From Alishewanella agri BL06 (GTDB lineage: Bacteria > Pseudomonadota > Gammaproteobacteria > Enterobacterales > Alteromonadaceae): a stretch of 64,000 nt of DNA. The stretch's first letter is position 1, and every line of letters starts with the position of its first letter. The notes below the pieces were generated by a model, which saw only the letters and a list, made by a program, of their open reading frames with translations, was not told where the DNA came from and did no database searches. The DNA lies in assembly GCF_000272005.1 (NCBI RefSeq), contig NZ_AKKU01000026.1, forward strand, positions 124,001-188,000, given 5' to 3'. The position numbers and the translations under genes are program-made. Below are positions 6,696 through 9,547 of this stretch, one piece after another.

Positions 6696-7067
6696 TTACA
6701 GCGATTTAATGTTAATCAAAGGCTCTCGGCTGGCATTAGCCGCTTTAAGCTTTGCCAGATAAGCTTGCCATAACGGTTCTTGCTGACTGGCGAGTTGTTG
6801 CAGATAGGCAAAACTATACAAACCGGTATAGTGGCCGTCATCAAAGCTGAGTTTGACCGCATAGTGACCTACCGGGGTAATGGCGGTAATGGCAACATCC
6901 CGTTTATTGGCAACTAATTTGGGGTTACCATGGCCACGCACTTCGGCGGATGGTGAATGCACCCGCAGAAATTCTGCGCTGAGGCTGCGACAGTCACCAT
7001 TGGCAGCCACCAGATCCAGGATCCGGCGCTGCCGGTGGTAGTGCAATTTTACCAAAGCTGTGGTCAT
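6696..7067 (-). CDS. DUF971 domain protein (gamma-butyrobetaine hydroxylase-like N-terminal domain)
   Basis: A 123-residue soluble protein made of a single DUF971 / GBBH-like N-terminal domain. It shows the typical start (KLHYHRQRRILDLVAANGD), the SLSAEFLRVHSPSAEVRGHG stretch and the end motif DDGHYTGLYSFAYL. In larger proteins this domain sits before a dioxygenase domain and can bind zinc; the function of the stand-alone form is not established. Its start codon overlaps the hslU stop, implying translational coupling. The same hslVU-DUF971 pairing is common in Shewanella-like genomes, which suggests, without proof, a link to protein quality control. Confidence 0.88.
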   Translation of the reverse strand: MTTALVKLHYHRQRRILDLVAANGDCRSLSAEFLRVHSPSAEVRGHGNPKLVANKRDVAITAITPVGHYAVKLSFDDGHYTGLYSFAYLQQLASQQEPLWQAYLAKLKAANASREPLINIKSL

Positions 7068-8398
7068 TACAGGATAAACCGGCTCAGATCTTCATCCTGC
7101 ACCAAGCTGCCCAGATGCTGCTCAACATAGGCGGCATCAATCGCAATCTGTTGTCCGGCATGATCGGCGGCATCATAGGAAATCTCTTCCAGTAAGCGTT
7201 CCATCACCGTATACAGCCGCCGGGCACCGATATTTTCGGTGGTTTCATTAACCTGAAACGCCGCGGCAGCGATACGTTTAATGCCATCTTCGGTAAACTG
7301 AATTTGCACACCTTCAGTCGCCAGCATGGCACGCGCCTGCTCGGTTAATGACGCCTTAGGCTCCGTCAGAATTCGCTCAAAATCGGCGGCGGTTAGGGCT
7401 TCCAGCTCAACGCGGATCGGTAACCGACCTTGCAGTTCAGGCACCAGATCCGACGGCTTGCTCATCTGGAAGGCACCTGAGGCAATAAACAGGATATGGT
7501 CGGTTTTAACCATACCATGCTTGGTATTTACTGTGCAGCCTTCGATTAATGGCAGCAGGTCACGCTGTACACCTTCGCGCGATACGTCAGGGCCGCTGGT
7601 TTCGCCGCGCTTACAGATTTTGTCTATTTCATCCAGGAACACGATGCCGTTCTGTTCTACGGCTTCCAGCGCTTCGGCTTTCAGCTCTTCCGGATTGACC
7701 AGTTTGGCGGCTTCTTCTTCAATCAGCTGCTTGAAAGCATCTTTAATTTTCAGCTTACGTTTTTTCTTTTTCTCACTGCCCAGACTCTGGAACATGCTCT
7801 GCAATTGCGAGGTCATCTCTTCCATCCCCGGCGGCGCCATAATTTCTACGCCAATGGGCCCTTGCGACAGTTCCAGTTCGATTTCTTTGTCATCTAACTG
7901 GCCTTCACGCAGTTTTTTACGGAAGATCTGCCGGGTATTGGAGTCGGTGCTGGCTTTTTCCGGCTCGCCCCAGGCGTCTTTGGGTTTGGGTAACAGCGCA
8001 TCGAGGATCCGCTCTTCCGCGGCTTCTTCGGCACGAAAGCGGTTTTTGGCAATAGCTTGTTCGCGAAACATCTTCACCGCGCTGTCTGTCAGATCACGGA
8101 TAATGCTCTCCACTTCCTTTCCGACATAGCCGACTTCGGTAAACTTGGTGGCTTCAACTTTAATAAAAGGCGCGTTCGCCAGCTTGGCCAGGCGGCGGGC
8201 AATTTCGGTTTTACCGACACCGGTTGGGCCTATCATCAGAATATTTTTTGGCGTCACTTCCTGGCGCAGCGCCGGATCTAATTGCATGCGGCGCCAACGA
8301 TTACGCAGCGCGATGGCGACAGCCCGTTTGGCCTTGTTCTGGCCAATAATATGGCGATCCAGTTCGTGGACTATTTCTCTTGGGGTCATATCAGACAT
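7067..8398 (-). CDS. hslU: HslU, ATPase subunit of the HslUV (ClpYQ) protease
   Basis: AAA+ unfoldase that feeds substrates to the HslV peptidase. It has 443 residues, the same length as the E. coli protein. The start [20 protein letters not shown] is canonical. Walker A is [15 protein letters not shown] (about 56-70) and Walker B is [10 protein letters not shown]. The GYVGKEVES pore-loop motif is present, as is the sensor-2 region [16 protein letters not shown]. The C-terminal DEDLSRFIL tail, which inserts into HslV to activate it, is intact. It lies 11 bp after hslV in a heat-shock-type operon and is coupled to the DUF971 gene. Confidence 0.98.
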
Positions 8399-8409
8399 GG
8401 GCTACCTGC

Positions 8410-8928
8410 TTACAATTCTTCAATAGTCTGGTGGTGATTGGTGTAGACACAGATATCACCGGCAATTTTCAGGCTTTTTTCCACGATATCGCGGGCGCTG
8501 AGCTCAGTATTTTGTAACAAAGCGGTGGCGGCTGCCTGGGCAAAGGGACCACCACTGCCAATGGCAATTAAATCATGTTCTGGCTGCACCACATCACCAT
8601 TACCGGTGATAATCAGTGAGGTATTGGCATCGGCCACCGCTAACAGGGCTTCCAGCTTACGCAGCATACGATCGGTACGCCAGTCTTTCGCCAGTTCAAC
8701 GGCGGCGCGCATTAAGTGGCCCTGATGCATTTCCAGCTTGGCTTCGAAGCGTTCGAACAGCGTAAAGGCATCAGCGGTGCCGCCGGCAAAACCGGCCAGT
8801 ACCTTATTGTGATAGAGGCGGCGAACCTTGCGGGCATTGCCCTTCATTACGGTATTACCCAGCGAGACCTGGCCATCACCACCGATGGCAACATGGCCAT
8901 TGCGGCGAACAGAGACGATAGTAGTCAT
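8410..8928 (-). CDS. hslV: HslV, peptidase subunit of the HslUV protease
   Basis: Threonine protease related to proteasome beta subunits, 172 residues. After removal of Met1 the catalytic Thr is exposed ([24 protein letters not shown]). The [14 protein letters not shown] segment is conserved. It forms a double hexamer capped by HslU and degrades misfolded or short-lived proteins. The only Shine-Dalgarno candidate, AGGG seven bases before the ATG, lies inside the 3' arm of a terminator-like hairpin (8933-8959). A sigma-32-like promoter precedes that hairpin. hslU follows directly. Confidence 0.98.
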
Positions 8929-8959
8929 AAAAAAGCCCTATGGCAGAAACATAGGGCTT
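8929..8959 (-). terminator. ftsN terminator hairpin that also sequesters the hslV ribosome binding site
   Basis: On the minus strand AAGCCCTATG, a 7-base loop and CATAGGGCTT form a perfect 10-bp stem followed by a run of six T (8934-8929) that ends directly at the hslV ATG. It looks like an intrinsic terminator for ftsN. The AGGG Shine-Dalgarno of hslV is in its 3' arm. A 5' leader stem-loop has been described for hslVU (clpQY) in E. coli. Confidence 0.75.
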
Positions 8960-8961
8960 AA

Positions 8962-8988
8962 GTAAGGGGGCAACTCACATTTTTCAAG
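8962..8988 (-). promoter_or_regulatory. Candidate heat-shock (sigma-32) promoter for hslVU
   Basis: On the minus strand CTTGAAA (8988-8982) is a perfect sigma-32 -35 element. It is followed after 12 bp by CCCCTTAC (8969-8962), which matches CCCCATNT at five of seven defined positions. The ftsN stop codon TGA lies within the -35 element. hslVU is a classic heat-shock operon. The expected start near 8955 would fall inside the hairpin at 8933-8959. Confidence 0.6.
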
Positions 8989-9547
8989 TGACGTTTCGTA
9001 CCTGACAAGTATTTATCCCCATTTGGCGTAAACGGTTCATATCGGCGGTGGCGGCACGTCGCGACTCATAGGGCCCGGCAACAACTCTAAACCAAACGCC
9101 ATTGCTGCCCTCGGTGCGGCGCACATCAGTTGCAATGCCAGCAAAGGCGATCTGCGCTTTCATTTGTTCGGCCTGGTTTTGCTGCCGGAACGAGCCACAT
9201 TGCAATACCGCTGGTACGCTACGTTGCTGCTGCGGTACCTCGACGGTAATCTCTTTATTTTCGAGCTCTTTAATATATTGATAAGGCTCAGCTTGTGGCT
9301 TGGGTGGTAATTCGTCCTTTGGGGCAACCTTCACCGGCGTCGCGACCGGCTCAGGTGTGACGACCGGTTGTTGCCGTAAAAACCATAAGCCGTAAATAAA
9401 GACGCTCAGCGTCAGTAAAGTCAGGGCAATCAGCAGCCAGGGTTTAGACGCAGCTGCTGGCGCTTTACCACGACCGCCCCTGGCTGCACCGGCTTTTTTG
9501 GCTGGCGCTTTCGGACGGCTGGCGCGTACATAATCTCTTTGTGGCAT
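8984..9547 (-). CDS. ftsN: Cell division protein FtsN (SPOR domain)
   Basis: A 187-residue inner-membrane division protein. It begins MPQRDYVRASRPKAPAKKAG, the basic cytoplasmic tail typical of FtsN, followed by one membrane segment (about 37-56, LLIALTLLTLSVFIYGLWFL). A proline-rich periplasmic linker comes next, with an FtsN-like E-domain segment around QYIKELENKEITVEVPQQ. The C-terminal SPOR domain (about 107-187) binds denuded septal peptidoglycan. FtsN triggers septal synthesis through FtsA and FtsQLB. It is short compared with E. coli (319) but normal for this lineage. It sits between priA and hslV as in many gammaproteobacteria. Confidence 0.93.
   Translation of the reverse strand: MPQRDYVRASRPKAPAKKAGAARGGRGKAPAAASKPWLLIALTLLTLSVFIYGLWFLRQQPVVTPEPVATPVKVAPKDELPPKPQAEPYQYIKELENKEITVEVPQQQRSVPAVLQCGSFRQQNQAEQMKAQIAFAGIATDVRRTEGSNGVWFRVVAGPYESRRAATADMNRLRQMGINTCQVRNVT

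Follow-up and report, generated by a model that had tools for sequence, protein, structure and literature searches.

The junction between ftsN and hslV raises the question of how RNA arriving from ftsN and RNA starting at the hslV heat-shock promoter could differ at the hslV ribosome binding site when only 55 bp (8983–8929) separate the two genes. We address it in a stretch of 64,000 nucleotides from Alishewanella agri BL06 (the window, to which all positions refer), where a first-pass annotation had seen a heat-shock promoter that would start inside a terminator holding this binding site; the HslV encoded here matches the A. jeotgali protein at 100% identity. The reading we favor, which we hold to be probable without calling it secure, is that the junction masks the hslV Shine-Dalgarno sequence (SD) in a start-gated manner, such that the fold depends on where the RNA begins and most HslV comes from heat-shock transcripts.

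Layout of the junction and its two predicted RNAs

The features on which the argument rests are as follows.

8984–9547, minus strand: ftsN coding sequence (open reading frame; SPOR domain by Pfam, FtsN)
8986–8984, minus strand: ftsN stop codon TGA, within the hslV −35 element
8982–8988, minus strand: sigma-32-type −35 element CTTGAAA (direct reading; conserved in 31/31 genus members)
8969–8962, minus strand: CCCCTTAC, 12 nt after CTTGAAA (direct reading)
8959–8968, minus strand: −10 element CCCTTACTTA (direct reading and alignment with hslV promoters of other genera)
8959–8950, minus strand: stem 5′ arm AAGCCCTATG (direct reading, terminator pattern scan, inverted-repeat search)
8952, minus strand: predicted sigma-32 transcription start, an A (promoter comparison)
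8949–8943, minus strand: hairpin loop (direct reading)
8942–8933, minus strand: stem 3′ arm CATAGGGCTT, holding the SD (direct reading, inverted-repeat search)
8939–8936, minus strand: SD, AGGG, with 7 nt spacing to the hslV ATG
8934–8929, minus strand: six-T run, terminator-like tail and SD–ATG spacer (direct reading, pattern scan; not conserved in the genus)
8928–8926, minus strand: hslV start codon ATG (direct reading)
8410–8928, minus strand: hslV coding sequence (open reading frame; Pfam Proteasome, HslV)
7067–8398, minus strand: hslU coding sequence (open reading frame; Pfam AAA_2, HslU), its start being the control site of the swap test

Direct reading places every element named by the first-pass annotation (CTTGAAA, CCCCTTAC, stem, T run, SD and ATG) where it had put them, including the ftsN TGA inside the −35 element and the SD inside the 3′ arm. 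The inverted repeat 8959–8950/8942–8933 is perfect over 10 bp and encloses the SD, and its six-T tail, the first two T of which also belong to the stem, ends at the hslV ATG; a pattern scan likewise returns a terminator-like site here, and a repeat search finds this hairpin as the sole inverted repeat of at least 8 nt within 8860–9040. The promoter adjoins the 5′ arm, with the final A of the −10 element CCCTTACTTA serving as the outermost stem base. The 65-nt junction stretch folds at −17.4 kcal/mol, a stability reached by 0 of 200 dinucleotide shuffles (z −3.6), and among the 56 window open reading frames of at least 120 codons, each taken to start at its first ATG or GTG, hslV has the highest predicted cost of SD opening in upstream-extended RNA (12.6 kcal/mol, median 2.4). 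Elsewhere in the window, a GBBH-like_N protein is encoded between hslU and an RraA-like gene (6696–7067, minus strand), overlapping hslU by 1 base.

The assignment of a sigma-32-type promoter is supported by comparison. The −35 and −10 elements have the usual spacing, 14 to the aligned −10, which one study gives as the commonest spacer of sigma-32 promoters (PMC10044804), while the −10 departs from the strict consensus; a strict sigma-32 pattern run across the organism's own genome returns two places, hslV not among them. We counted along the hslV promoters from the first T of TTGAAA and found an A at position 36 in 66% of the 88 that come from outside the genus, the strongest single base past the −10. 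Among the 31 genus members this base is A 28 times, G twice and T once, always with a T before it. Lack of pairing does not remove the purine: alignment A2 shows 11/31 members unpaired at this position, although for L031 the cause is a row misaligned by one column. In the window position 36 is A8952, the likely sigma-32 start. The annotation had placed the start near 8955 and argued that the first bases of the 5′ arm would be lost; a start that takes away most of this arm is supported, but its likely place is 3 nt further downstream.

Several observations on hslV starts stand apart. A promoter scan found no sigma-32-like promoter before hslV in L042, L043 and L197 (genus g50). The start codon is GTG in 87, ATG in 86 and TTG in 6 of 179 distinct loci, the TTG loci belonging mostly to genus g28. 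By eye, L032–L034, L074 and L075 carry, upstream of hslV, inverted repeats of the type AGCCCTTT..AAAGGGC that end in the −35 and have one arm complementary to the SD region as well; these loci fail the mask tests. One genome (G078, contig 1) gives two equal-scoring hslV matches, 2265929–2266444 and 5651640–5652155, 3.4 Mb apart. The predicted heat-shock RNA of the window would open with the AUG of a four-codon reading frame (AUG UUU CUG CCA UAG; 8952–8938, minus strand) whose stop abuts the SD; it is also found in L003 and L004, and is absent from the other genus members listed.

Transcripts entering from ftsN, where read-through occurs, would carry both arms, form the 10-bp stem and hide the hslV SD, lowering its translation; in Alishewanella they may additionally terminate at the T run. 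A ribosome halted at the ftsN TGA should, from its footprint size, end at least about 10 nt short of the stem, leaving it closed. Sigma-32 RNA from about A8952 would instead begin within the stem: 8959–8953 lie upstream of the predicted +1 and are present only in RNA arriving from ftsN, so that the 5′ arm loses 7 of its 10 bases, and with the remaining three the stem could not close and the SD would stay open. Predicted SD opening costs are 3.8 kcal/mol for RNA from 8952 and 11.7 when 45 nt of upstream sequence are included, a difference that holds from 4 to 50 °C, and the RNA from 8952 alone folds no better than shuffles. With the assumed 5′ end moved stepwise, opening costs at least 12.8 kcal/mol at 8957 and upstream to 8962, 8.7 at 8956, 6.4 at 8955 and about 4 from 8954 downstream. 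The proposal that a weakened stem exposes the SD thus agrees with the folds for a start at 8952, but at 8955, the start first suggested, 6 bp of stem would be retained. Because the promoter DNA directly before +1 would double as the anti-SD strand in the unwanted transcripts, HslV would be made mainly from heat-shock messages.

Conservation in the genus and the terminator aspect

Genomes of the window's genus (g1), whose members match Rheinheimera and Arsukibacterium contigs, allow masking and termination to be separated. Absence of the hairpin and of CTTGAAA from close relatives had been named in advance as evidence against the arrangement; CTTGAAA is found in 31/31 genomes, and a stem of at least 5 bp joining bases around −8 to +3 to the SD in 29/31 (exceptions L019 and L021; in L016 and L029 the SD stem was read from the sequence, the script output being another helix of equal length). 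The stem followed by a T run that defines an intrinsic terminator is present in the window, and a T-rich tail occurs in 3–5 of the 31 depending on the criterion (L002–L004, L002–L005, or L002–L005 and L018). Because the stem on the SD is kept so widely and the tail so rarely, the conserved part is masking rather than termination. The terminator of the first-pass annotation therefore finds no support as a general feature, and termination as a conserved role was rejected.

Genus medians of predicted SD opening are 4.0 kcal/mol for the heat-shock RNA, 8.9 for the read-through RNA and 4.9 with shuffled upstream DNA; against shuffled upstream DNA, p falls below 0.05 in 18/31 members and below 0.5 in 30/31. 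In a swap test, where the native promoter is compared with promoters from other genera for masking of the locus's own SD, 24/31 fall below 0.1, the others being L015, L018, L019 and L021–L024. Changes that keep the stem pairs are present among the relatives (alignment A2: GC to AU in 2, CG to UA in 1, AU to UA in 2, and U-G at one pair in 7), but shuffled controls are only moderately exceeded, with 15–23 of 500 shuffles reaching three measures, 19/500 the paired percentage and 236/500 the number of pair types.

These data bear on the alternative that the hairpin is a plain intrinsic terminator of ftsN, squeezed into the 55-bp gap, that overlaps SD and promoter without regulatory consequence. 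Such a terminator would account for the stem with six T and for the lack of a second inverted repeat of at least 8 nt nearby, and L047 and L053 carry terminator-like hairpins at the equivalent place; we regard it as unlikely, since the tail is so much rarer in the genus than the SD stem and since, in other genera, many masks lack a T run behind the stem. The element is real and conserved in the genus, and is best read as a start-gated mask over the SD, joined in Alishewanella by a terminator-like tail.

Termination may nevertheless follow the same logic at a few loci. Behind ftsN in L047 (g49) and L053 (g35), the −10 box lies inside the 5′ arm of terminator-like hairpins of 18 and 19 bp followed by a T-rich tract, and RNA from the predicted +1 loses the hairpin, its folding energy going from −25.4 to −3.4 kcal/mol in L047 and from −30.5 to −5.9 in L053. 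The combined idea of the first-pass annotation appears to fit Alishewanella and, in purer form, two other genera, with masking as the wider theme. Terminator-like hairpins closed only by upstream DNA occur in 12/162 native loci, 143/6,966 swaps and 72/3,240 shuffles, in a scan whose limit on G-U pairs missed L053 (found by eye, then folded); 10 of the 12 native cases belong to g1 and g28, and hence to few lineages. A separate terminator scan, confined to loops of 3–8 and thus missing the long-loop cases L047 and L053, is positive in 13/155 loci, 7 of the 162 having no ftsN stop under the rule used. In that scan, genera with and without a mask are alike in their intrinsic terminators (Fisher p 1.0), and because masks and terminators are unassociated across genera, a replacement of terminators by masks is not supported. 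In L048, L159 and L164 (g50), terminator-like hairpins with T-rich tails lie within the hslV leader, downstream of the predicted +1, and could form an attenuator in the heat-shock hslV RNA.

Predicted masks with unrelated sequences in other genera

Outside the genus, unrelated sequences are predicted to mask the SD in the same manner in Alkalimonas, g28, g27, g25, g26, L198 and L199, in many cases with no T run behind the stem. The anti-SD arm of Alkalimonas (g42) shares bases with the −10 box, AAGCCCTTA pairing with TAAGGGCTT in L040 and L044, and GAGCCCT with AGGGCTC in L035 and L036, of which L035 is the Alkalimonas locus that fails the shuffle test (p 0.33). In g28, AGACCCTC within the −10 pairs with GAGGGTCT, L150 shows a compensatory change (AAACCCTC with GAGGGTTT), and L239 lacks the pairing. 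In g27 an arm directly before +1 forms about 14 bp with the SD and the start codon (L140). Stems of this kind span 11–12 bp in L198 and 7 bp in L199, and g10 shows covariation between the base that precedes CTCC and the one that follows GGAG (A-U in L186 and L199; G-C in L211, L212 and L227), with L215 as an exception.

Whether such pairing exceeds expectation was assessed on hslV from 218 genomes (31 of the genus and 187 outside), from which 173 loci were taken among the matches listed; once one exact copy (L254) and 10 loci whose promoter call was weak or absent had been removed, 162 loci in 44 genera were left. Contigs of named relatives entered the +1 comparison, the first folding sample and the start-codon count rather than the swap test. 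That first sample, 87 loci outside the genus including E. coli, Yersinia, Shewanella, Photobacterium and Pseudoalteromonas, shows no overall shift in SD opening, with medians of 3.7 for read-through and 3.9 for shuffled RNA, 46/87 loci below p 0.5 and 11/87 below 0.05. In the swap test, the native promoter hides its own SD better than foreign ones do: 12 of 44 genera have a median p below 0.1 where 4.4 are expected (binomial 0.001; KS 0.0015), p values that serve as a guide only, because the genera are related and not independent. Without the window genus the count is 11/43, and under three alternative settings it is 14, 12 and 11 of 44. Among leaders of at most 36 nt, 7/15 genera outside the window genus pass, compared with 7/36 for longer leaders (binomial 0.06); the shuffle test outside the genus gives p below 0.05 in 18/40 short-leader and 15/91 long-leader loci. 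Pairing of the SD with upstream bases peaks at −15 to −11 and −5 to −1, and in the short-leader class these peaks reach 0.218 and 0.207 with native promoters, compared with 0.102 and 0.116 with swapped ones. The same test applied to the hslU SD, as a control, yields 0/51 loci at p below 0.05 (14–15 swaps per locus; 11 genera, 29 of the loci from the window genus), compared with 23/49 in an hslV repeat of equal power (13–14 swaps per locus).

Promoter and SD are thus co-adapted across genera, and we infer that the mask has been under selection. Chance or base composition would mean that a C-rich −10 pairs with a G-rich SD by accident, the window being a fortunate instance that one genus has inherited. 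Such an account draws on the persistence of both pairing hot spots at about half strength with swapped promoters in short leaders, and on the 32 of 44 genera that fall short of a median p below 0.1; it is quite improbable, as both the composition-keeping shuffled null and the real-promoter swapped null are exceeded and the hslU control is negative. The use of such folds in several genera is apparently convergent.

Remaining alternatives and relation to known systems

A DNA operator, a palindrome that binds a protein at the promoter with the RNA stem as a side effect, is very unlikely: the near-perfect palindrome does span the −10/+1 region, but G-U wobbles keep the RNA paired while spoiling the symmetry of the DNA (one stem pair is U-G in 7/31 genus members), and the arms vary by genus in sequence and position yet include or adjoin the SD. 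It is highly improbable that the element is an RNA thermometer, in which heat-shock RNA would start upstream of the arm and the stem would melt with heat. An SD in a hairpin ahead of a heat-shock gene recalls known RNA thermometers, but the predicted +1 lies inside the stem, which RNA from 8952 would not contain, and heating to 45 °C still leaves the full stem with a predicted opening cost of 11.1 kcal/mol, and heating to 50 °C with 10.6. The 5′ stabilizing stem-loop of E. coli hslVU mRNA, matched by Rfam RF02401 (ClpQY_promoter) in the E. coli and Yersinia ruckeri leaders, belongs to the same operon and likewise combines a heat-shock promoter with a stem ahead of hslV, but is a scarcely credible model here, as the E. 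coli stem and SD both lie downstream of the predicted +1 with the SD free, the window stem covers the SD, and RF02401 has no match in window positions 8800–9150 up to E 10. The best sub-threshold Rfam match in the window, NsiR1 (23.1 bits, gathering 39; E 0.018), was taken as chance.

The start-gated mask has closer parallels elsewhere. In IS10 and IS50, fold-back inhibition of transposase synthesis hides the ribosome binding site in RNA initiated outside the element and leaves it free in RNA from the element's own promoter; there it guards a mobile element against any outside promoter, whereas at hslV it would concern a fixed neighbor, ftsN. From an intrinsic terminator, with which it shares a G+C-containing stem and T run, the window hairpin differs in that most genus members have no T run and in that the downstream gene has its SD as the 3′ arm. 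In phage T4, the long early RNAs of gene e and I-TevI mask the ribosome binding site, and RNA from the late promoter lacks part of the stem; the reports describe gene e, I-TevI/II/III, segB and Aeh1 mobE alike, with upstream-initiated RNA masked and proximal-promoter RNA, short of the 5′ stem part, translated (PMC3014915, PMC2988022). The SD within the stem of the long transcript, typical of these cases, is predicted in the window and in 29/31 genus members. As far as those reports go, the phage cases involve late promoters and homing or lysis genes, with 5′ ends and effects measured, whereas hslV belongs to a chromosomal protease operon with a sigma-32-type promoter, and both its 5′ end and the effect are predicted. 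A literature search, weak because subscription literature was mostly outside its reach, found no cellular gene with this arrangement. What is new would be a known phage-type masking in a cellular heat-shock operon, the surprise being its apparently convergent use in several genera.

We tentatively extend this reading, with rather less confidence than for the junction itself, to a broader one: evolution may repeatedly have turned alternative-sigma promoters of cellular genes into one side of an RNA fold, its 5′ strand, which keeps read-through transcripts silent either because it covers the SD or because it completes a terminator. The bases of the −10 box, or those preceding +1, would then act as promoter in DNA and as anti-SD or terminator arm in RNA. 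Such evolution would have occurred at ftsN–hslV in several genera of the Alteromonadaceae with unrelated sequences, and may be general for stress genes in compact genomes. If the proposal is true, translation of a chromosomal stress gene would be set by the origin of its RNA, through bases that are both promoter and anti-SD, and a phage mechanism would extend to cellular heat-shock control. It would account for the ability of hslV to remain silent although it follows an essential cell-division gene by 55 bp with no conserved terminator between them. It would also be a case of such folds evolving convergently, and would yield a rule that can be tested on other stress genes whose leaders are short.
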